Assembly (NCBI RefSeq): GCF_003073045.1
Contig: NC_037602.1
Location: forward strand, 1,240,001 to 1,304,000
Length of the DNA stretch: 64,000 bases
Source of the DNA: Pomacea canaliculata
Taxonomy: Eukaryota > Mollusca > Gastropoda > Architaenioglossa > Ampullariidae
Direction: 5' to 3'
Position 1 is the first letter of the stretch; each line of letters begins with the position of its first letter. Position numbers and translations under genes: made by a program. The notes beneath the pieces are model-generated. The model was not told the origin of the DNA. It was given only the letters and a program-made list of their open reading frames with translations, and did not search any database. Of this stretch, positions 3,316 through 40,100 are shown one piece after another.

Positions 3316-6242
3316 ATTCAATGGCGAGGTCAAGGCTATGCTGTCTTGTTGTCATCTCTGATGATGTGATCTCCTAGTGCGTCCTCCTCTGGCTGTCGTC
3401 TAGGAAACACGGCAACATCAAAAACACATCATGATTTGTCTAGACCATGGAATCATTAGACTAGAATACCTCAGTGTGTGAACGTTTATCAATAATTATC
3501 TTTACATATACAAAGAAAATCTCTAAACAGCCATGAAAGGTTTGAACTGGAATAGTCACTCAGAGAAATATATATTTTTCAGCAGCTGAACATTTCTTGC
3601 AGTTTTCACTTTCGAAAAAGTTATTGACACTGGGGTGGTGAGCTGCTGGTGGTATGATGGAGGTGATGCAGTGCTAGATGCTGTTAGTAGCCATGGTGTA
3701 CATAGGAGTGTGGACAGACGAGAGAGGACTGCTAATTAGTGAGACAACAAAACTCAGTTTTCCCCTGAGACAAGGTATGAGTGAGACAGAATCCGCTTAC
3801 TGTGTAGACTCGGGTATCCCACAGGCACGAACAGGCAGGTGATCAGCGAAGTTCACATAAACTGTTCACATCGATAGGTTCACATACACGAAGTTCACAT
3901 ACGTTAAACCACAAAAATTTGCCAACCAAGTGATTCTCACGACAAAGTTTGGAAATAAACTCCGAAGCACGAAAGACAATCTAGCTCAAACTTCCCGAGT
4001 CTGAAATATAGCCCCTCTCAGAAACAGTGCAGTATTTTGTTTTCTTTTTCTTTTTTCCACCTCTGACATCTACAGATTATGTTCGAGTCCATTAGCAGGC
4101 CGTGGCTAACACTCAAAGCTGTTGGACTTGAATACAACTGCAGGGCATTGTATCCAACCTGCGACAGTCTTCCACTGGCATCTGGTTTCCGTCAGTAGAG
4201 TGAACATGGGGCTGGAGCTCCCGACTATAAGGTCCCAATCACGAATTTTGTTGACCCCAGGACCTATCTACGGGGAAGTGGTGGCTCATTAAGCAAACAA
4301 CTGATTGAGTCGGGTGGAGGGTCAGGAGTTAAAATACTGGTGGCGGTAAATCAGACAGCACTCTATCAACATCCTCTCATTGCAAGTCTGATTACATATT
4401 TACACTTTAAACAACTGTTTACTGCTTCGTCAGTCAAGTCGGATCAAGATTTCAAGGAAACTGTTCTCTGAAGATTCTTCCTGAAACAAGTACGCGGCTT
4501 ACATATTGCTTCGTGTCAGAGAGGACTGAAGTGGCAACAAGTCCAAGCACTTCAACACGATATCTAAACAAGCTGTTTATAATGTTACAATGTGAATACC
4601 TGTTTATTTATTTGTTTGTTTGTTTGGACATGAAGTGAGATTAGTGTTGTAGTCAATTATAGCGTGGTTGTAAACTTCATACAGTGAAGACAAACATTTT
4701 CTATCAAAGTTTGCTTCTTAATTAATTTATATTAATCATTAATTTTTAATTATTTGTAATTTACTAATGCTGTGACTGAGGTGTTAAACTGCCGCCGTAA
4801 AGAAATCTTTGTAATCCGCAATGTTTCACTTTACTTTCTATCACCAGCTTGTATTAACGTGTCCGTGCTTTGGACAGGTGTGTGAGTGCGTGACCTTTGA
4901 TCTCTGACAGTAAAATACAGGTGACGTCATTACAACGTCATAAACTACGTCAGTCCTCGTCCTCACGTCACGATCGGTTTCTACTTGTGAAGAGGACAGA
5001 ACGACAATGGCGATAACAAGCAAGTGAGTAGCAATCGAGTTGCAATCAATTGAGTAACAATTAAGTGAGTAGCAGTCAAGTGAGTAGCAGTCAAGTTGCA
5101 ATTAATTGAGTAACAATCGAGTGAGTAGCAACCAAGCGAGTAGCAGTCAAGTGAGTAACATAAACATTGTGGACTGGAGGTGTATGGCCGCCACACAGTG
5201 CAGTAGTACAGACTGCGGTAAGTAGTGTTTACTGTCCTGTCACAATGCCACAACATTTGTTGTTGTTTCCTCAAATGGAGAAGACGGTAGACACACTTCA
5301 CACAGTCATTGTACTCACGTGGTGCTGTGGTGCTCGTAGTACTCGTTATAGCAACAGTAATTGTATCCACGTTTGCTGTTTCGTGGCTTTGTTCAAAAGT
5401 GTGTTCTCTGTTCTCATTGGTTCCCGACAACAAAACTTCCTTTCGTTTTAAAAAAAAAAGCCCCACAGTCAGTCTGCAAGTGTTGTAGTTCCTCATTTTC
5501 CGCAGTCAGTTAATCCGGATGTAAAATTGTTTTCTTTACCCAATGTTTATTTTTTAATTATTTTTATTTCGTTCCTTCGCAATTTCTCTTCTTTACAATA
5601 AGTAAGGGATTATTATCCTCTTATCTCCTATCTATGAGATTTTCTGGACATAAAACCACATAAAACCACTGACTGCACGAAGTCGCTCCTGACCCCTTAC
5701 CCCACCTGACACTAGGATGCCCTACTCGCCACACCCAAGCTTTACAGGGTGGTCTCATTAAGCCATGTGTCAATGCACCATAGTCTTAGTCACCATGGTG
5801 GACACCCTAGTGGCCAGAAGGTAGACTGGCTTCAAACAAAGGAGTGGACAAGGACTGCTCCCCACCCTGTCACACCTGTCAGCCGCTGTGTCCACTTTCT
5901 CCTTGCAATGACCAGTACTGTCCGACAACAACAATCAGTTGCTACTTGTAAAGAGATTGACAAATATGAGGACGACGACGATGACGACATCGATTATGAT
6001 GAAAGATGTTCAATAAAACCTGTTCAGTGCCAGTTATGGCCGTCTCCAAACTGGCTCGTTGTAGCAGTGCCAGCAGAAAAAACTAAATCTGTTATTCTCA
6101 TTTCTTATTGATTACTGACCATCGTCTAATAACGATTTGTGTTAATCTGTTCTCAGGTGTAAACAAATCCTGTCCAGAAGAATTATTGATCCTGATAGAA
6201 ATTCCGACATTCGAATTTTTTATCATTCTGCGCACGCATAAC
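3316..6242. other. Spacer between KY1 and the glycosyltransferase gene
   Basis: No gene recognised. It contains a 15-bp minisatellite (5017-5161) and AT-rich DNA. A 120-codon open frame (5749-6111) has an acidic run from GAC/GAT repeats; it has no recognisable domain and probably is not a gene. An acceptor-like TTCTCAG at 6150-6156 is followed by an open frame that runs in phase into the glycosyltransferase ATG. Confidence 0.6.
5017..5161. repeat. 15-bp minisatellite
   Basis: About nine to ten degenerate copies of a unit close to GTGAGTAGCAGTCAA, some shortened to 13 bases. Because 15 is divisible by 3 the frames stay open through it, which explains the repetitive open frames on the minus strand here. 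Confidence 0.8.
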
Positions 6243-8543
6243 ATGCTTTTATTTGGGTAAGTAAACAAGTTTATTGTTTGCTTGATTATTCTGGTTTTAT
6301 TTGTATTCAGTGAAGGTACTAGTCCTCAGTGTCATCGTTAGGGACATACCCGTAAAGCAAACAGCGGGTATTTTATATACACTGCAGGGTACTTGTGACA
6401 CATGTTATTACCTTTCATACTGAAATATTGAAGTAAAGAAGACTCGCCATCTGTATCATCCTCTCAGTCCTAGGGACCTACATCGCCCTTTACAGAGTCA
6501 CGTGTCTGTGAATGCTTTCCCGGTCAGTTGAAAACATAGCTATGTCGAAGATTAAAAGTACGACTATTATAAATAAAACTAATACCTCAAACTAATCATT
6601 TTCGTTGCTGTTGTTGTTTACAGCCTCGGAAGGTGGTTTTTTTACCGCCGCAAATCAAATATCTTCAGAGGCCGTGCTTTTTTATTGGCTGCCTTGGTTC
6701 TGGTTATCTTCCTTGTCAACAGACTTCCGCTTCCGATTTACCGATTTTTCTCTTCCCTTACCTTGCTGAGTGAGTAAAGCAATGATATTATTGTAGTTCA
6801 TGTGTCTTTGTAGTAAGCCTGGGCTGTACCACGTGCAGGTTCATTTTGAATATTCTACGACTAGCGAACAGCTCTCCAGCGAACCGCCGCCATATTGTTG
6901 AAGAATACTTTTTTACAAATGCATTCATCAGTCATTTCATCAGGGGTTGCCATGTAATCTGTGTAATCCAGACAGTCAGCCGGTCAGCCGGTCAGCCAGT
7001 AAGGTATTTTGTTTCCTGTCCGTATACTCTTTTCATGAAGCTTGTTTCAGCGCTGTTTTCTGTCCGCTATCAAGGATGCAGGTATCAGCTCGTTCAAGAC
7101 GATTTCTTCAACAACATGCCGATTCCCGAGGACCCACTGCTGTTGCCCTTCCCTGAGTTCAACACGTCGAGCCTTCCAAAAGAGGGCGACGCCATGATGC
7201 AGAAAAGAATTCACCAGATCTTTATGTCAGAGCAGATACCTATCGTCTATGAGTCAACAATCAAGTGAGCATCTTTCCCACAAACACTTTTGAAGCTGTT
7301 TTCTTTTGTCTTTGTTCAAACTCTCTGATGGTGTGAACAGCTTTTAGCAACAGCGTCTCTCTATGTTGCTGACGACATGTCTCCCGTGTGTTTACCATGA
7401 TGTTGTTGTGGTGGTTGTGCTATGTTGCTTTGTTTTTGTTTGGAAACAATATTCAGACCGTGGACGAGGAAGAGTTTACCTAGGTTTACTGCCACTAATC
7501 GACTACCATTAAGCACAGTGCCATAGACTGAAAGACAAGAAGTAATCTCAGAGAAAGCGGATAGCCGAGTGGTTAGAAGTCTGGAGTCCGAAACTGAGAG
7601 GAAGGCCGGTTCGATACCCTTGTAGTGCAGCAAACTGTGTCTTAATGTGCGTCTCACTGCAAGCTCGATATGTTCAGCCCTCTTCCTCCGGTCTTTACTC
7701 AAAAGGACAAGGATGTAGGTCTAGCATACCCCTCCATTGCCACAAGCCTTCTGGTCTATCTTTTCCAGATCATGGATGGTGCACCACCCGGACTGGGAGT
7801 ACAGGTTGTGGACACCTCAGCGACTGGAAGAGCTGCTGCAAGTCAAGTACCCTCATTTCGTCGATACCATCAACCTTTATGTCCTGGACAGCCAGAGGGC
7901 CAGTCTCCTGCGCTTTCTGGTGCTGCTGGAGTTCGGCGGCCTCTTCCTGGAGCTGAACATGCACAGCCTGCGCTCCCTCAATCCCCTCACCTACCAGTCC
8001 TCCTGCTTCCTTGTCATGGAACCTTACGAGACCTCCGTGTCTGATGCCACTTTCTTCGGGATGTTCAGCGACCACTTCATCGGCTGCAGAGCCCACCATC
8101 CTTATCTGAAGGCTTTGCTGGTGAAGCTGCAGTACCTGCGGTACTTTGAGAGTTTCGACAGACCCATCGCCTACTACATGCACTTCGTGTACACCATGTA
8201 CGCTGGAGCGCACGTCACCTTCAGTCCCACGCACCCCAACTACGTCCTCCTGATGACCCCTTACCCCGTGTTTCCCTTCTCTGATCCCACCAGGCACGAA
8301 GCCCTGTACCGGACATGCGCAGATAACTACGTCTATTTGTCTCCCTCACACAAGCGGGTGTGTCAGCATCTCAAGAGGCAGAAGCCACTCCAACAGCGGC
8401 TGGCATCAGCCTTTGCTTTGCGTCAGCCATGTCCCCTCTTAAGTGTCAACCGACTTTGGGCTGTTCCTTCCATGCACATCCGGGCTATTGTACCCAAGAT
8501 CAACATGACATTTCGTATTCGAGGTTCCAACGACTACATCTAG
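6243..8543 (+). CDS. GT32-like (Gly_transf_sug) type II membrane glycosyltransferase, DxD degenerate
   Basis: Four exons: 6243-6256, 6624-6769, 7075-7264, 7769-8543 (374 aa), with phase consistent at every junction. A short basic cytoplasmic tail (WFFYRRKSNIFRGR) precedes a membrane segment (AFLLAALVLVIFLVN, about residues 24-38), the layout of a Golgi type II enzyme. The lumenal part shows GT32-family landmarks: KRIHQIF, then WMVHHPDWEYRLWTPQRL, then QRASLLRFLVLLEFGGLF. At the position of the family's metal-binding DxD the sequence reads ELN, and the Asp normally found in the preceding QRADLLRY-type motif is Ser. It may therefore be inactive or use another mechanism; the substrate is unknown. 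Sequons NTSS and NMTF are present. The start is uncertain because the frame is open upstream of the ATG to an acceptor-like site at 6156. The gene lies between the two KY paralogues, on the opposite strand. Confidence 0.8.
7557..7640 (+). repeat. tRNA-derived SINE head
   Basis: An A-box-like TAGCCGAGTGG and a B-box GGTTCGATACC are spaced as in a tRNA-Ser/Leu-like promoter. They lie in intron 3 of the glycosyltransferase gene. No cloverleaf with a complete acceptor stem is evident, so a SINE or tRNA relic is more likely than a tRNA gene. Confidence 0.5.
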
Positions 8544-21982: not shown

Positions 21983-23389
21983 TTAATTATTAACCAACTT
22001 GATGATCTCAAGAATGTAGGTAAAAATGGCGATAACATCGATGTAGATGAAGAGGGCGGCCGGCACATAATCCTCGGGGGAAAGCTGGTATTGCCTGCCT
22101 GCCATCAAGCTCTGAACATCGAACAACAGCCACTGAAATATCAAACAGCAGCCATTAAAACAACATCAAGCAGCTACTGCAACATCAAGCATCAATACTG
22201 AAATATCAAACACCAGCCACTGTAACATCCAGCAACAACCACTGGCATATCAATGAGCCTAACACCAGAAACTCGTGTCAGGAAACACCAGCACCAGAAA
22301 CAGTGACGTCAGCAGTAGTCACCGACAAGCCACTCATCAGTTACAGCGAAAAACAAAGCCAATAACAACAACAACAACAACAACCAACACCAGCCATTCA
22401 GATAAACTCTGAAACACCAAACACTCATCCTCAAAAAAACCAAAACAAAACAAACAAAAAAACAACAACAACAACTGAAGCAATCAACACGAGAATAAGT
22501 AACATAAATATCTCTGCTGTGACAGAAAAATTCCTTTTTCAAGACTCGACCAGTGAAGCAGCAGAACCTGTTACTTCGCATGTTTTCAGTGAGTTTGCGT
22601 TGTCTCTAGTGTGTTTTCTATGTTAAATATATGTTCTCCTTTGTTTCATTTTCTTTATATTATCACCCAAAAATATTCCTTTCAAATAAATTCCCGAAAA
22701 ATATTCCTTTCAAATGACATATCTCTATGGACTCCAGACATTGTCTGCCTGTGTGTTTTTTTCTATCCCATCTAGGGTGGGGTGTGTGTTAGTGAATCAC
22801 TCCCTTTCTTTCTGTCCGCTTGTCTACCTGTCTCTCCCTCCCTATCTGCCTCGGATGCAGTCTTACCAAGCAAAACAGCAGTGCTCCCAGACTTGAATAG
22901 ACGATGGCAACAATCTGGAGACAAGATGAAAAAATAAAATAAAATCTCAGACTTGTACTCACTTCCTTCTGTCCGTTTTCTGCTGCCTACACAAGTCAAC
23001 CCTTAAGATGTATAGCGGGAATACTCATTGACAACTCCAAGTCTACCTACCCATGTCCTTCCTAAGATGAGCATCATGATGCCGGCCACCAACATCACAA
23101 TGGTGAAGATTATTAGTGCGCCAAACATGACTGTGAAGTCCCACTGAAACAGCGAGATGTCAACTAAATACTAGTCATCTCGGGTTGAAGGTAAGACTAG
23201 CGCCACACACACACCGAAATAGCAACACACACACAGTGAACAGCAAAACACACACACACCGAAACAGCAACACACACACACACCGAAACAGCAACACACA
23301 CACAGTGAACAGCAAAACACACACACACACAGAGGGAAACAGCAACACACACACACACACACCGAAACAGCAACACACACACAGTGAAC

Positions 23390-23430
<41 letters not shown>

Positions 23431-26400
23431 GGAAACAGCAACACACACACACACAGCGAAACAACACACACACACACACAAGAAGTAAGTTCAAGAGCGA
23501 CACAGACAAATCAAGATGATGCGTGGATGTGGGCTTAAATGTTCAGAACTGTATAGCATAAACTGGCTTGTACAGAATAAAATAAAAACTAAGTAAAAAT
23601 TAAAGCATAAACACGTGAGATCAGCTATTTTTAAAGAAAAAGAAAGTACTTGAATTACAAACTCAAGTCAGGTGATCTCAGGTTAGGTTTTCTAGGCCCA
23701 GTCTGCTCGACATGGGTCGACTAGGTCAGGGATCTCGGGTTTGATTCTTAGTGAGACAAAACTTACAATGACAACCAACAAACAACAAGTTACCTTTGTC
23801 TGAAGTGCAAATGCAGTAATGGACAAAGTTACTACCTGAAGAAAATAAAGACAAATTTTAAACAATTAAAGGGCCTGAAAAGCACACACACACATAAAAC
23901 CATCTACACATTCACACACACATAAAACCATCTACACATTCACACACACACACAGAGAGACTTCCATATAGTGGATTTTTTTATCTGAGACAGAAGGAAC
24001 AGCAAAACACAAAGTAAAATACAAAGTATTCTATATTCAACAATAAAGACATTATAGACATTATTCTTACTTACTATACTAATCTACTATTGTACACTAA
24101 ACAATAAAGTAACATTTAAATTATTGTCACATACTTTTGTAGTCAACGATTGTAGAGTAAATAAATACAGAAACATCAGACATTATTCAACTATTCAACC
24201 ACTTCACTCGCATCTTTCCTCTCTCCTCCTGTACACAGACACTTACTTGACTTCCTCCCTTCTGTAGATCCATTCTTTGTGATTGCTAGTTAGCCTACTT
24301 ACGTGACGGCTAGTTAGTCTATTAACCACTGCGACTGCTAGTTAACCTACTTACCCCTGTGATTGCTAGTTAGTCTATTAACCACTGGGATTGCTAGTTA
24401 GTCTACTTACCACTGTGACTGCTAGTTAGTCTATTAACCACTGTGACTGCTAGTTAGCCTACTTACCACTGTGCCTGCTAGTTAGCCTACTTACCACTGT
24501 GATTGCTAGTTAGTCTATTAACCACTGTGACTGCTAGTTAGCCTACTTACCACTGTGATTGCTAGTTAGCCTACTTACCACTGTGATTGCTAGTTAGTCT
24601 ATTAACCACTGTGACTGCTAGTTAGTCTATTAACCACTGTGACTGCTAGTTAGCCTACTTACCACTGTGACTGCTAGTTAGTCTATTAACCACTGTGACT
24701 GCTAGTTAGCCTACTTACCACTGTGCCTGCTAGTTAGCCTACTTACCACTGTGATTGCTAGTTAGTCTATTAACCACTGTGACTGCTAGTTAGCCTACTT
24801 ACCACTGTGCCTGCTAGTTAGCCTACTTACCACTGTGATTGCTAGTTAGTCTATTAACCACTGTGACTGCTAGTTAGCCTACTTACCACTGTGATTGCTA
24901 GTTAGCCTACTTACCACTGTGACTGCTAGTTAGCCTACTTACCACTGTGCCTACTAGTTAGCCTACTTACCACTGTGATTCCTAGTGCCAGAAGAATCTC
25001 TCCGTTAGTATACCTCCTGCAGACAGAGTCAGGCCAGCAGCAACAGTACAAAAGATGTCAGTGTGCTAGTTTCTTTTTCTCCGAACATTTACTCACTTTC
25101 TTCCTTCCTCGCTTTCCACCCTTTGGCTCATGTCTTTACACATTGACATGCAAGTAGTTTACAGTTGTATACAGCTTGTGCCAAGCTTTGTTAGGAAAGG
25201 AATGAAGGAATGAAGGGGGATGCTTGGGCACAGAAAACCCAGGCTATTTCACGAGTACTTAAGTCAGTCTATTCACTTTAGTATCATGGATAGACTAAAA
25301 GTCTTTGTGTATATGAGCTTGCGAGCCTGTGTGTTTGTGTGAGAGACCGCGTGCGTGCTTGTGTGCGTGCATAGGTGTGTTTGCATCATTGTTTGAGCTC
25401 GTCGTCTGTGCTTCGTGTGAGCGTGAGGGTCTCTCTGTACTATCAATACTTACACAGTGATTACTCCCAGCAGAATACCTTGCAGCGCAGTCTGCAATCA
25501 GTACATCATGTTTACTGAGCTCTCAGTACAAATTAGTGTACACTTCATGGCCTGCTTTGACAGTAAAACTGTGAAGTTTGCAGCAGCTTTTTGTCTGGGG
25601 TGGAGGGTGTGCTGGTGCACGTGTGTGCGTGCATTCAAGTAAAATGTTACATCTACGGTCAAGACTAAAATTAAAACAGAAAATTTCAAACAAAAAGGTA
25701 ACAATAAAATATTGCATAAATATGACTAGTTGAGATTGAAAGATGGTAGAAACACAGATGGACAAAAAGCACTCAGCAAAACAGACGAATGAATGAAGGA
25801 ACAGAGAAACAGACAGATTTGCGCACAAGAAAGCATGGAGACAAAAGAAAAAGACAGACTGAGGCTAGGGAGCAGAGGAGAAAGATGAAAACATCCGCTT
25901 GCAGCCTGTAACTTACGTAAACAAAGAGCAGGACGATGTTGATCGGATGCTGTCTGGCAACACCTTCACAGCACAAAAGGACCAGCAGCACAATGATCTG
26001 CGCTAATCTTCGCAAACAAAAACAAAAAAGACTGAGCGAAGAAAATAGCAATAGATAGAAAAACATAATCCATTAAAAAGAGATAAAATGGCGCAGGAAA
26101 AGGAAAGAAGATAAAAGGTGGACAGTTTGGCCAAGGTGGTGGTCGCCGGCCGACTACTCCTTAGGTGAATATTGTTCTGCTTTAAAATTAATAACAAACA
26201 GCATGACTTAGTTTAAAGGCCTAGTCACGTGCAATATTTCTTCTAATGACTGCGTGAATCTCAGTAGATGGGTTCTATTACCCTTTATCTAGGTAGACAA
26301 ACCTCCCTAATTGTGATTCACGAATACAAACAACACTGTGCACTGAAAGAGATCAACAACACCGAAGTGCGCATGGCTACCTTTACTTTGTAAAGGCTTT

Positions 26401-29400
26401 AACAAGTGGGAGAGCTGAGACAAGCATCATTATTTACACTGAGCATCTTGACTTGCATGCCCAGCTCTTGTGTCTATTGAATACTGTTCTTGAAATTGTT
26501 TAACACTAGAGATCGCCTCCAACTCAGTCTACTCTCTTTGAATGTGTTTTATTTTGAATATATTTTGCTCTTTATGTAAAGCGCATTGAGTTTACTTCAA
26601 AGAAGAGAAACATGCATTATAAATTTTTCGTATTTTTATTTGTTAATTAACCGCTTTCGAGATTAAATGGCACTTGACAAGTTTGCTGACTTTTTGTGCA
26701 TGGTGATGTTCACAAGCCAGTACGCCGAGAATGGAGGGTGGGGAGATAGGGGTATTCACTGAGATTTTGGAAAATAATATCCTCGACTAAGCTTTCCTCA
26801 GTCATTAAGGGACAATGTCTTCAAGATGACCGTTTACGTGGAATAGCTACAGCTAGAAACAAATAGCAACATGCTGCCATGACCGCAAAACATCCCTTAC
26901 AGACTCAGGTAGAAGATCCAGATGTACCGTATGATGGCATCCTTAATGTTCGGTCTGAAACAAAGAACAAGAAACTAAAATATCACGGCAGAAACATAGA
27001 ACTTAAACATAGGTACAGAAACATAGAAACAGGCCATCCACATAAATATACTGCTGGAAACATAGGAACAGGCCATCCGCTTAAATATACTGCTAGAAAC
27101 ATAGGAACAGGCCATCAAGTTAAAAAGAATCAGATTCAGTAACTCATCTCCTTACACACTCATCATCTACCCTCTCTACCCCTTCACAAAAAGCTAATCA
27201 GTAAAGACACAAAGCATTATACAGAATGATGTGTGTGCAAAGGCATTGTGAAGGAATGGAAGTGCGTGAATTCAGCCGCTTACTTGATAATAATAATTTT
27301 TATTATTTTTTTTTAATTCAGTTTTTCTGAGGTCATCTGGCTCATATCAACATTAAATACGATTGTGTGTGTCTGTCCGCTAATAGTATTCAATATCTTT
27401 GAGGGCATCTAAGTTATCCAGTAAACAAACTCCAGTCTCAGTGCAAACGAATGATGTCATAGAATGCACAAATATCAACACTGTTAGAATACATCAACAT
27501 AGAAACTGTTACCAGTCTAAGGCTACATTGCATGGCATAAATATTTTAAAAGTCGCATACAGACAGCGAACCATGATTGTTCAACATCTCAATGCAGTGT
27601 ATTTGAGGACAGAATCTCATCCTCTCATTCCACCCGTTATTTACTTCTCTGATCAATCAGACATCGACGTGGTGGGGACGGGCTTCATTCCGCTCCAAAG
27701 CTAGCAAACTGAACAATAAGTACGACACCTTCGCAACATAAATCGTTCTCATAATTTATACAAGGTCCTGCATTCTCATATAAACGTACACGTACACGTA
27801 CACGTACACACTGACGAACACATAGACATACACGTGAAACCCGCTCTATGCCTCAGATCAGTGTGTGTGGATAACGATGTACACACTTACATAAACATGA
27901 AGCAGGCCACTATGCCGCAGGTGACAAGAAGCTGAAGGAACAGGATGGCGAATACCTTCCGGATGAAACCTGCCGGCAAATGAAGCAGATTAAAAACTTC
28001 AATACTTTAGTAATTTATTTGATGGCAACTTGTTTTACCTTGATTTATTTGATCACACATTCAGTGACAACAGATATGTAAGAAGGAAAGATCACGTGAC
28101 ACAAGCAGGTGGGAATGGATGAGCCGTTATGAACTACTCAATGGTGAGTGTCCATATACAGATACATAGTCACATTGTATGCATAATATAGGCAAGGTTA
28201 TAAACAAAACTTTAGGGTGGGTACAAGTATGTTTATTGAATACAAATTACAGCAATTATATATTTGATAACTGATAGGATTTATGTTGCATGTTTGACTT
28301 GAAATATCTCAGCAGCCTTGATAGCTTGAAGTAATAAAGACAAAACCTAAAAATAAAAATACTCTTACTAAATTAACTCGATTTGCGAGATTATTTCTTA
28401 AAATTGTGACCTAGAATAACCTACTAGATATCAATATATGTTGATGTTGTGTGGATATGTCTAAGTACTTGTGAATTAAATAAGAGCGAAAAAGAGAAAA
28501 AAAATATTTCTCTAAACAATTATAATGTTCCTTGACTCCAAATGATGTGTAGCTTAATTTATTTGATTACATCTCCAGGGAAATATTTATGTTTTGACAT
28601 GAATGCATGAGGAAAGCAGCAAATGTGTGAGAGAGGGAGGGAGAGAGTGTACAAACAATACAACTGTCGTTGCAACTCACCTTGTCTGATTTCTTTGTCG
28701 TAAAACTCTGGCTGGGGAGTCATATCGCAGCATCCTAAACGGAAAAAAGATGTTTTCTGAACTGATATATATATACACTTAAATTTACTTATCTTCTGAT
28801 GTATGCTTATGTGAGTTCCCTTGGACCTGAGACTTTATCCATTATGGAACTGATACCTCGAGCTTGTGTATTTGGGATAGTTAAAAATGCTTTCTCTTTG
28901 AAACACAAAGAGAGAGGTAAACTTGATTTTTTCAAATTGTCAAAACCTACCACATATTATTTTATTTATTTATTATTTTTTGTGGTTTTTCCCACCGAGT
29001 AGGCATCCTATACGTCTTACAAAATAATTCAGTCATAACTCTCTTCCTCTCTGTCCTTTGCAATAACAACCCAGCAAACACACCAGTGTCCTACACAACA
29101 ACTACCAATGCAACTAATATTATTAGGCTTCATCTTTCCTTGACAGTGTGTGTTCACGCGCGCGTGCTTGTCTTCACGGCCACACTCCAGCATTTTAACT
29201 TTAACTATGACAGGCAACAGCGTTTACCTGTTTCTTTTTCCGCAGTCTGTTGCATGCGGACCGGCTGGTCCTCCCGCTCAGGTATGTAATACACAACATT
29301 AGTCTGGTAGCTTTGCTGCTGGGGATACTGATGATGGTACTGCTGTGGATACTGTTGTGGGTACTGCTGTGGGTACTGCTGGGGGTACTGCTGGGGATAC

Positions 29401-29561
29401 TGCTGAGGGTACTGCTGTGGGTACTGCTGTGGGTACTGCTGTGGGTACTGTTGAGGGTACTGCTGGGGGTAAGCACCATAGTAAGGCGGCGTAGACTGTT
29501 GCGGGGGTGGGGACGACTGGTATTGGTACTGGGGGGGATCTGTTCGACCCGTGTCACTCAT
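21983..29561 (-). CDS. Lifeguard/TMBIM family (Bax-inhibitor-1 superfamily) membrane protein
   Basis: Eleven exons: 29561-29228, 28734-28681, 27969-27891, 26954-26901, 26007-25917, 25491-25454, 25016-24971, 23835-23794, 23143-23051, 22914-22867, 22132-21983. They give 342 codons plus stop with every phase matching. The N-terminus is a Pro/Tyr/Gln-rich cytosolic tail with about eleven YPQQ repeats, like the proline-rich tail of GRINA. Then come FYDKEIRQGFIRKVF, the usual entry to the first helix, and seven hydrophobic segments. Family landmarks are LLALGITVV, TKWDFT, LFDVQ with its Asp, LSPEDYVPAALFIYID with the second Asp, and a short C-terminus IIKLVNN. Known members are ion-channel-like proteins of Golgi, ER or endosome membranes that modulate calcium and cell death. 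The gene is divergent from the AGA gene 875 bp away. Intron 7 carries the splice-donor array described separately. Confidence 0.92.
22125..22260 (-). repeat. Degenerate repeat copying the acceptor of the last TMBIM exon
   Basis: The true acceptor (GATATTTCAG|TGG, exon start 22132) has an upstream copy with the same GATATTTCAG ending at 22198. Both lie within CAA-rich degenerate repeats that also contain several CAGTGGCTG-like strings. A decoy 3' splice site about 66 bases upstream of the real one is possible. Confidence 0.6.
23205..23485. repeat. Interrupted (CA)n array
   Basis: CA runs separated by GAAACAG or GTGAACAG spacers, in TMBIM intron 8. The long low-complexity open frames on both strands here are artefacts. 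Confidence 0.95.
24285..24980 (-). repeat. 28-bp tandem array duplicating the TMBIM exon 7 splice donor
   Basis: About 25 head-to-tail units; the leftmost is 24 bp, the rest 28 bp. On the coding strand the unit is CTAGCAATCACAGTG, then GTAAGTAGGCTAA. The right-most unit overlaps exon 7: its AATCACAGTG is the exon end and its GTAAGT is the native donor (exon end 24971). Sixteen units keep GTAAGT, including the native one; nine carry GTTAAT instead, so they lack the consensus. The unit therefore contains about 14 bases of exon and 14 of intron. There are no spacers, so this is not CRISPR. Confidence 0.95.
26570..26640 (+). repeat. LINE/SINE 3'-tail-like fragment
   Basis: GTAAAGCGCATTGAG followed about 30 bases on by a GCATTATAAATT-like string matches the common AAGCGC...GCGCTATATAAAT tail of CR1/L2-type elements. 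It lies inside a TMBIM intron. Confidence 0.4.
27001..27122. repeat. 39-bp tandem repeat, about three copies
   Basis: Units contain GAAACATAGGAACAGGCCAT followed by an AAATATACTGCT-like end. They lie about 50-170 bp upstream of TMBIM exon 4 in the preceding intron. Confidence 0.8.
29339..29480 (-). repeat. 12-bp coding repeat (YPQQ)n in TMBIM exon 1
   Basis: About eleven 12-bp units encode consecutive Tyr-Pro-Gln-Gln, flanked by YHHQ and a final YPQQQ. Synonymous third-position variation between units indicates an established rather than very recent expansion. Confidence 0.9.
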
Positions 29562-37146: not shown

Positions 37147-40100
37147 TCACTTCATTGCAGTAGGTTGATAGCCCCAGTCATAATACGTGTACACAGGAGC
37201 ATATTCTAGAACCCCATGAGTGTATTCATTATCATCCTCATCTTTCACATTCACCTTCCCAAGGACACATTCGCTGTAGGAGGGTGGTGCTGAAATAGAA
37301 AAAAACATCTCATAAAATATAAATCAAGCAAAAATTATTTTGTTTCAAAAGAAAGATTTCAAAGTAATGAGATGTCAACAGTAATGAAAATGCTTGGAAA
37401 ATTAGAGGTGTTAAAGAAAAAATGGTCAAAGCATTAAAAGAAGAAAATGAAAAGGATATCTGCAGTCAAACGCCACTAAAATCCTCTTCAAAAAATAAAA
37501 TAAAAGTTCTGTATTTAATGCTAGGGCTATAGGTCCAGAATGCTTTCTGTAAGAAGGTAGAGAATGCATTCAACAATCTCCAGGTCAACAAAGTAACTGC
37601 TTTACACCAAGACTACAAGTCCCCAATTTTCACCACAATTCATTCATTCCACATGCCATTTACTTGATCAACTCTACTGGCCTTGATATTATGCTAGCCT
37701 GAGGTGATCCAAGGTCACCAACTGTATCTACTGTTGCTGGAAATATGTGTGTGTGTGTGAGAGAGAAGTTATTTCAACATGTATGTGTATTATCTTTATA
37801 TATTGCTAGTATGAGCATTATCTAGAATTGCCCTTGTAGACAAAGTTATATTATCTGAAAATATTTCAAATTAAGACTTAATGTAATTATTCAATTTAAC
37901 ATTGCAAAGGACAGAACTCAACACTTAATATTAAGAAACATTAAAACAAGAATATAGGAGTACCTGTAAATGCATGCACGCATGCACACACAGACACAAG
38001 TATTTAGTTCTCACATACGCAGATTAGGAATATGACTGGGTGGTTGGTAGGGCATCACAGGTTCAAAAGGTGCAGATGGTATGACACTCCCTCCATCCAT
38101 CCCAGAGATGTTAACAGCTTCTGTAGGAAGAGGGAATCCAACTGGTGGCTGGAACGGCTGTGGTGCACGAGGAGGGCATAACTCAACCACCTGACGAAGG
38201 GGGATGGTGCCGATAATGATCTCCAGTGGGACTTCCAGGTTCAATGACATGCCAGAGGGTTCAACGTTCAGCTTCAAGAAATCAGCATGAGTAAACATTA
38301 TTTGTCTTATAGCATTGCTCGTTCTCTCAATTTAACACTGGACTGGTGTTCTTTGAAAGCTATGATAAGTAGAGACCTAATAGAGTGGATGGGAATATTT
38401 GTGAGTTTTTTTGTGAATGTCACTTGGTACAATTTAGTATCTACCAATCTGAAACAATATCTACATTCATCTAAAGCACTCAGTAGGGCATAATACTACT
38501 GACTTTTCAAGTGACTTACCTTTCAGGTTGTTTTTATTGCCATTCTATTTAACTTACCTTTTAATCTGTTCTTATTGCAATTTTGATTAACTGACTATAG
38601 TGTTTAATTGAATGAAGACTTTAAAAATTTATATTTTATAATCATTTGCTTTGCAGAGGAAAATCTTTCAAGTAATTTCTAGAACATATTGACTTTGCAT
38701 GACAGGAGATACCTTCATCCAACCAGCATGCTAGTCAAACTTGTGGTTTGATTCAACATTTTGATTTAAACATCAAAGTTCTGCTGAGCTGCAAACTGTA
38801 CATCAATACACACCACTGGAAACCTCTAGCTCGTTCATGTATTTGTATGCCTAAAGTCATTTAATTGGATAAGAGAGGACCTGGTTTAGGAACAAAAATG
38901 TTTTAAAATGTGGCACAAAATAATGCAGTACTCATATTTACTGTATATATGTATTATGAAGCATCAAATGTTTGAAATAAAAATTCAACAAGATATGGCC
39001 TGAATGATTGCATCACCATCAGGATATCGGATTCATAACCAATCATTGACTAAAAATCTTGATTTTGCATTTACAGTGTCAAATATGCCAGTATATTTTC
39101 AAGAATATTAAGCCTGTGAAGTGCTAAGGTTGCAAGAATTCACATTTTTAGCCTGTGAGTGTGATGATCTGCCTTAAAGAAATGTGGCTATAAACCACAA
39201 TATTCTGACAACCTGCAACTTCCTTACCTGCAGAATGTATTTGACATCAATAATCCTGCATCCTGCAAGATGTGATGGGGGAAGTGGAGGAAGCACAAAT
39301 ACTTGCCCCTCCCATGAAAAGGACTGACCCTCTTCAATGGGACCCTCCAGTACCCTACCGACCTCCTTCACAGATGTTCGGTTCTTGGTTCTTGCATAAT
39401 ATGTTATTGTCTAAAGCAAGATTTTAAAACATTCTATTAGAATTGACAGTGTATTGCATCTATATCTTGCATACCAAATTGACTATAAATATATCTCTTT
39501 GATCATATTCATTAGTATACACAAAGGAGGTATAAAAGCTCTTTAACAAACTCAAAAGCATAAAGATCTCCTCATGTGATACATGATGTAATTAAATAAT
39601 ATATAATGTAATTAAGTGATAAGTTAAAATTTTTTCGTTCACATCCATGTCATTAAGTTCTTTATTATAGATATTTCTACTACATGTTTAAAGTAGCACA
39701 AGTTTTCTTTTTCAGGAAATTTTAGGAAACTGTCTCACCATTCTCAGGTCTACAAAAGATTTGTCCATTTTCTGGTTACTTTTGTTCTTGATATTTGCCA
39801 GCAATTTAATAGGTTCTCCTGGAACATAGCCACGGCGTTCAAGGTGAAACGATGCAGAGATGGGTCCACTGGCACAACACAGACAGCACAGAGTCTTCTG
39901 GTTCACACCCTCAACAGGTATCTGTCACAGAAAATGCTCTATACACAGCACCTAAGAAACTGAAAACCTAAAGCCATTGGTGGGTTTCTATCATGGGGTC
40001 TCTCATTTTGCAAAACCGAATTAGATAACATTACCATGCCAAATGTTATAAAAAACTATAATGAAGGTACTACCGAAGGACAACAATGCTGCGTTTTAAG

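Follow-up and report, generated by a model that had tools for sequence, protein, structure and literature searches.

Minisatellite-like tandem duplications of exon–intron boundaries have been described in amphioxus as "mirages"; they affect 5' and 3' boundaries and vary in length, and reverse transcription–polymerase chain reaction suggests that regular splicing is undisturbed (PMC3087553). Additional lancelet cases are reported elsewhere (PMC3902484). In this work we analyzed 64,000 nucleotides of the gastropod Pomacea canaliculata (contig NC_037602.1, positions 1,240,001 to 1,304,000), a 64-kb stretch that we call the window. Its minus strand contains a gene that, from its domain content, is a member of the TMBIM/Bax inhibitor-1 family, and the donor of the seventh intron of this gene lies within an array of 28-bp repeats. 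The array is best filed as a further case of the known mirage kind, given its boundary-spanning unit, the second boundary affected in the same gene and the character of its edge units.

In humans, IFI6 (G1P3, 6-16) reportedly carries a splice-donor minisatellite, to judge from the title of Turri et al. 1995 in reference lists. Its repeat units are 12 nt long and 26 in number. Two downstream repeat units of IFI6 act as additional donors (PMC4526556). Tandem duplication of exonic proto-splice sites has also been linked to intron gain, both in Drosophila and in human segmental duplications (PMC2891723, PMC2812944). Intronic minisatellites occur in an earthworm metallothionein gene (PMC12783039) and, with a 27-bp unit and variable length, in an abalone kinase gene (PMC6905558), and the accessible parts of both reports do not state that the repeats cross a splice site. 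Among the matches listed in the open-access literature we found no molluscan mirage, which does not prove absence, and the main text of an article dealing with Pomacea and related hemocyanin genes does not contain the words "tandem", "repeat" or "minisatellite".

Tandem Repeats Finder (TRF) located the array at window positions 24278–24986 of the minus strand, with a period of 28, 25.5 copies, 87% matches and a score of 1047; the second-best score within the window was 429. The original prediction had placed an about 25-fold amplified 28-bp unit at 24285 to 25016. The amplification was borne out and the array, about 710 bp long, is real, although the predicted start misses roughly 7 bp of its outer end. 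We phased the array such that each unit starts with the first intron base, 24970. In this register the unit reads GTAAGTAGGCTAACTAGCAGTCACAGTG, and 23 complete units are followed by a 24th, shortened by 4 bp, and by an incomplete 25th of 25 bp. With the native unit numbered 0, GTTAAT occupies units 4, 7, 10, 12, 13, 16, 19, 21 and 23, whereas the other 16 of the 25 units contain GTAAGT, precisely the split that had been predicted. GTAAGT follows CAGTG in 14 cases and CAGGG in unit 22; the outermost copy, at 24302–24297, is preceded by TCAC and has lost four bases there. The remaining minus strand of the window contains 21 GTAAGT motifs, compared with these 16 in a stretch of about 700 bp. Thirteen of the 15 GTAAGT decoys share the native 11-nt donor GTGGTAAGTAG, one has a single base changed and the outermost differs in three exonic positions. 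Measured against the U1-complementary donor consensus, GTTAAT units reach 6 of 11 matches versus 8 of 11 in the native donor, and their contiguous run is broken. A genome search with the array DNA matched only its own locus, although such a non-match does not prove rarity.

The repeat unit contains more than a splice signal. The last 16 bases of exon 7 agree with the unit consensus at 14 positions, whereas the exon ends at nine other donors agree at 0–8; the unit therefore includes exon sequence, beyond mere splice consensus. With the final three bases left aside, the match is still 11 of 13 (shuffled-exon P 1e-5), a level that only 2 of 63,258 other 13-mers on the minus strand of the window attain. 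The array hence begins inside exon 7, and its unit crosses the exon–intron boundary as in mirages. A whole-genome search with part of the protein gave at least 11 matches, which correspond to the window gene and three further loci, L013 to L015. Exon 7 ends in ...GGAATCACAGTG/GTAAGT (the slash denotes the exon–intron boundary). Its counterpart in L013, at 4916–4961, is likewise a 46-nt exon with the same phases, terminates in ...GGCATCACAGCA/GTAAGTTT and precedes a 516-nt intron. At this equivalent junction L013 has a single donor and no tandem array; its only repeats lie at 357–404 and 7166–7206, its best 28-mer matches the array unit at 18 of 28 positions, and its exon-11 acceptor is plain too. 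Neither L014 nor L015 has this intron; their coding match continues across the position of the exon-7 junction. As L013 shares the position and phase of the intron but not the array, the junction predates the array, and 24971 is supported as the exon end that had been predicted and that our exon model also gives. From the exon-end homology and the array-free paralog we conclude that the unit was copied from the exon-7 junction, as the amplified junction of the original prediction implies. The array would thus most simply have arisen in the window's gene as a later addition. The paralog also bears on the idea that uncut copies recruit the U1 small nuclear ribonucleoprotein and thereby aid inclusion of the short 46-nt exon. 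Sixteen GTAAGT copies within 700 nt immediately 3' of a short exon would suit such a landing pad, but the equivalent 46-nt exon of L013 has one donor and no array, and we regard this role as very improbable.

The order of the units points to block-wise growth. Core-unit similarity peaks at lags of 3, 9 and 12 units (permutation P 0.0056, 0.0052 and 0.0092), with P 0.058 at lag 6 and 0.72 at lag 13, and two five-unit blocks recur exactly, units 2–6 as 14–18 and units 6–10 as 15–19. The core units 1–19 vary solely at sites 3, 5, 9, 20 and 21, while private variants are confined to unit 0 and units 20–23, i.e., a homogenised core is bordered by divergent edges, another mirage feature. All nine GTTAAT units carry +3T, +5A and +9A in common; unit 20 carries +9A alone. 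To account for this pattern it suffices that a single altered unit was spread by block duplication, and nine independent donor losses need not be invoked. We favour the view that the GTTAAT units represent a single three-substitution haplotype distributed by a three-unit higher-order repeat. For the alternation of intact and disrupted units, selection or higher-order duplication had been proposed; the lags and the shared substitutions speak for duplication and leave selection a small part. Selection might have favoured GTTAAT because it removes competing donors, and indeed nine of the 24 decoys are without +3A and +5G and have the weakened consensus match described above. Block copying of one linked +3, +5, +9 haplotype accounts for all nine, however, and unit 20 shows a partial state, which makes selection for weak decoys a highly improbable cause. 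The higher-order arrangement of unit variants also argues against an assembly artefact, or a repeat collapsed or expanded in assembly. Tandem arrays are error-prone, and short-read polishing could blur unit differences. Against this stand the size of the array in relation to the 10.1-kb mean long reads of the published Pomacea canaliculata assembly and a second, degenerate junction array in the same gene. An artefact seems very hard to reconcile with these observations.

Use of the decoys would alter the conceptual protein. Extension of exon 7 by one unit, i.e., 28 nt to the first decoy, shifts the frame, which then stays open to codon 344. All extensions by 2–24 units run into a stop at codon 244, including the in-frame multiples of 84 nt. 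The expectation that downstream copies usually shift the frame is thus too mild. The codon-244 stop precedes the last exon junction by 203 to 819 nt. For stops in such a position upstream of the last junction, nonsense-mediated decay (NMD) is expected. The array could act as a set of regulatory decoys: a fraction of the mRNAs would be spliced at downstream donors and cleared by NMD, so that the array would set how much of a presumed cell-death regulator is made, and decoy 1 would yield an isoform of different C-terminus. The near-identity of most GTAAGT decoys to the native donor, the premature stops at least 203 nt upstream of the last junction and the downstream donors of IFI6 isoforms (PMC4526556) all agree with this. 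A meaningful alternative C-terminus via decoy 1 was nevertheless rejected, as an open frame of at least this length appeared in 9% of synonymous resamplings. Similar arrays at unrelated genes argue for a general mutational process. We consider a regulatory function unlikely. We also rejected RNA structure as a means of hiding the decoys: the minimum free energy of the array RNA was −194.5, whereas shuffled sequences averaged −204.4 (z +1.32), and 19 of 20 shuffles folded as well or better.

We think it probable that the array is a mirage-type minisatellite that arose by junction duplication, grew as minisatellites do and retained its first donor. A 28-bp stretch, consisting of 16 nt of the exon 7 end and 12 nt of the intron 7 start, would have been tandemly duplicated, and slippage or unequal exchange would have enlarged the array by single units as well as by the three-unit block. 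With the first unit intact and the copies placed towards the intron, the coding sequence stays unchanged provided that splicing uses the native donor, which is the 5'-most one. Most transcripts would then employ the native donor and the copies would be removed with the intron, nearly neutral in effect; decoy use would be low-level at most, and unproductive. The likeliest outcome is splicing at the first donor, with copies that are for the most part silent. Lancelet mirages with copied splice sites reportedly leave regular splicing intact (PMC3087553, PMC3902484), in keeping with this view, and the series of competing donors in the original prediction stays a hypothesis. Several points weigh against this. 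The 13 decoys identical to the native site over 11 nt, together with the reported ability of SRSF1 to promote intron-proximal sites, mean that decoys may be used, and in human IFI6 two downstream copies do serve as donors (PMC4526556). Nine of 24 decoys are disabled, an outcome that selection could give as well. Moreover, first-donor use is deduced from sequence, and the tally of other arrays given below is an uncontrolled count.

The same gene has a second array at a junction (Table 1). It is degenerate, has a 22-bp unit and spans the acceptor of exon 11. Four intronic sequences match the first 18 nt of exon 11 at 15/18, starting at 22154, 22219 and 22241 within the array and at 22396; CAG precedes those at 22219 and 22241. 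No other 18-mer on the minus strand of the window attains 15/18. The 22-bp array seems to represent an older equivalent, at an acceptor, of the exon-7 array, and both boundary types are affected in one gene, the exon 7 donor and the exon 11 acceptor, as found for mirages. Special targeting of junctions was rejected, however. Tandem repeats with a period of at least 10 make up 19.6% of the gene, so that 2 of 20 junctions in arrays are no excess (rotated-mask mean 3.9 of 20).

The conceptual 342-aa protein matches Pfam Bax1-I (PF01027) at residues 130–336 with E 1.3e-34. Two more repeats belong to the gene: a CA-rich repeat of about 275 bp at 23204–23478, within intron 8 and roughly 60 bp away from the acceptor of exon 9, and a coding 12-bp repeat at 29316–29471 (minus strand) in exon 1, which yields a QYPQ tract at the N-terminus of the protein. 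Elsewhere in the window, a 15-bp array at 5017–5157 (plus strand) contains five donor-like copies of GT[AG]AGT, and a two-copy 38-bp repeat at 38514–38592 (minus strand) has GGTAAGT in each copy; by eye, the DNA upstream of the latter is not coding-like.

Similar arrays occur elsewhere in the genome. A pattern of three GGTAAGT motifs with gaps of 15–40 gave 328 matches, many of them within single long arrays, and the arrays listed reach up to C8; a second pattern contributed arrays on C10 and C14. The list is incomplete in that it covers neither the pattern for GGTAAGTA nor that for GGTAAGTT. Clustering of the matches listed gave at least 27 distinct arrays, all of which we examined, 20 with wide and seven with short flanks. 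Six of the 27 have a recognisable protein domain or relative, by similarity only, in a stop-free frame at the first donor, and four more show weaker signs (Table 1). Six, perhaps 10, of these other arrays may thus also begin at coding exon ends, whereas 17 gave nothing identifiable as an exon end. The scan covered stop-free tails of at least 22 aa, namely 25 of 27 wide-flank tails plus a hand-cut piece of L056 and all four short-flank tails, and hence would miss short or unfamiliar exons; the two tails omitted duplicate L052 and L059. Matches near the limit of 0.1 (a second one of L049 at 0.089, L051 at 0.099 and L061 at 0.096) were treated as chance.

In eight wide-flank arrays that we read closely, the TRF start lies 4 to 28 bp within the presumed exon. 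The L049 array reaches only 4 bp into it and so offers little evidence of copied exon. When the frame is read on from the exon, seven of the eight arrays give a stop within about two units, and L050 stays open for 282 nt or about 11 units. We do not claim a genome-wide enrichment of donor arrays, as the raw ratio of 328 matches to 68 for the reversed motif is inflated by long arrays that are counted many times. After clustering, the region from C1 to C8:3.5 Mb holds 23 GGTAAGT arrays versus 11 of the reversed motif; of the 23, no fewer than four nearly duplicate another one (L046/L047, L052/L053, L056/L057, L059/L060). In 92,993 bases of background sequence, GGTAAGT and its reverse were counted 15 and 14 times as single motifs. 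Three of the arrays deserve a separate remark. L052 (3480–4082) and L053 (3482–4122) contain 20-bp arrays that are related to each other and carry 30 and 18 GGTAAGT copies, with no recognised exon; many of their units read ACAG/GTAAGT and so combine an acceptor-like with a donor-like signal. L062 (3450–3577, reverse strand) shows a possible exon with a GTGAGT donor at its end, immediately ahead of the GGTAAGT array, whose copies may not stem from the native donor.

Table 1. Features of the exon-7 array, its host gene and related arrays. Positions refer to the window; loci designated L lie elsewhere in the genome and are listed with the similarity found at the first donor (numbers are E values).
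Feature	Position	Strand	Remarks
Donor-register 28-bp array, 5' end of intron 7	24278..24970	minus	16 GTAAGT + 9 GTTAAT
Native donor GTG/GTAAGTAG	24963..24973	minus	8 contiguous matches to U1-complementary consensus
Decoy donors	24297..24942	minus	15 extra GTAAGT interleaved with 9 GTTAAT
Exonic part of repeat unit (ACTAGGAATCACAGTG)	24971..24986	minus	14/16 identical to unit consensus
Conceptual gene, 11 coding exons	21983..29561	minus	342 aa; GT-AG junctions, consistent phases
Coding exon 7, 46 nt	24971..25016	minus	Phase 2 in, phase 0 out; acceptor CTGCAG; last base 24971
Intron 7, 1135 nt	23836..24970	minus	About 61% array
Coding exon 8, 42 nt	23794..23835	minus	Acceptor CTTCAG/GTAGTA
Degenerate 22-bp array across intron 10/exon 11 acceptor	22115..22244	minus	TRF; exon 11 start 22132
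L048, choline transporter			PDB 3.9e-22 to last residue (54-aa exon-like query); no Pfam match
L064, class B receptor			7tm_2 1.9e-14, to last residue
L049, C-type lectin			2.9e-11, to penultimate residue
L063, peptidoglycan recognition protein			PDB 7.3e-13 (40-aa query); Pfam 4.2e-4 to last residue, below curated cut-off
L068, CUB			1.9e-5, to last residue
L057, second C-type lectin			PDB 7.4e-4, ends 12 residues before donor; no Pfam match
L046, L047, trypsin-like, weak			0.015, below Pfam cut-off; best PDB 0.05 for L046
L050, M12B propeptide, weak			0.023, below Pfam cut-off; no PDB match up to E 1
L056, near copy of L057			No Pfam match

Two features lift the array above a mere curiosity: the occurrence of comparable arrays elsewhere in the genome and the orderly succession of its intact and disabled donors. 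Rules for the choice among identical 5' splice sites have been derived mainly from artificial duplications. In the snail, a single gene offers 15 natural extra GTAAGT copies at 28-nt steps, mostly with near-identical flanks, plus nine weak versions, and hence a natural experiment on the choice between identical donors, i.e., whether cells take the first or the intron-nearest one. We may further speculate, as a quite doubtful generalization, that donor-spanning minisatellites at coding exon ends form a genome-wide class that is tolerated as the spliceosome takes the first donor, with a minority co-opted to set productive/unproductive ratios. If such a class is indeed tolerated via first-donor choice, the TMBIM array would be a ready-made titration series.

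The snail locus suggests that mirages are not confined to lancelets, and it bears on tandem duplication as a feed for intron evolution. Like intron gain from proto-splice sites, tandem duplication here places copied splice signals in the transcript (PMC2891723, PMC2812944); unlike it, the snail case multiplies the donor of an existing intron, and no new intron is implied. With human IFI6 it shares a minisatellite at the exon end and donor sites within the units. In IFI6, however, two downstream units make isoforms (PMC4526556), and the snail unit is longer, at 28 nt. The likeness to the amphioxus mirages in Adh3, troponin C, the globins BflGb6 and BflGb9 and PGBD5 extends to the involvement of both 5' and 3' boundaries, to the occurrence in several genes per genome and to edge units that escape homogenisation, and the Adh3 unit length of 10–72 bp covers 28 (PMC3087553, PMC3902484). 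The difference is that those mirages belong to a lancelet host, whereas the present one is found in a gastropod and comprises 25 copies in which intact and disrupted donors follow each other in an ordered series.
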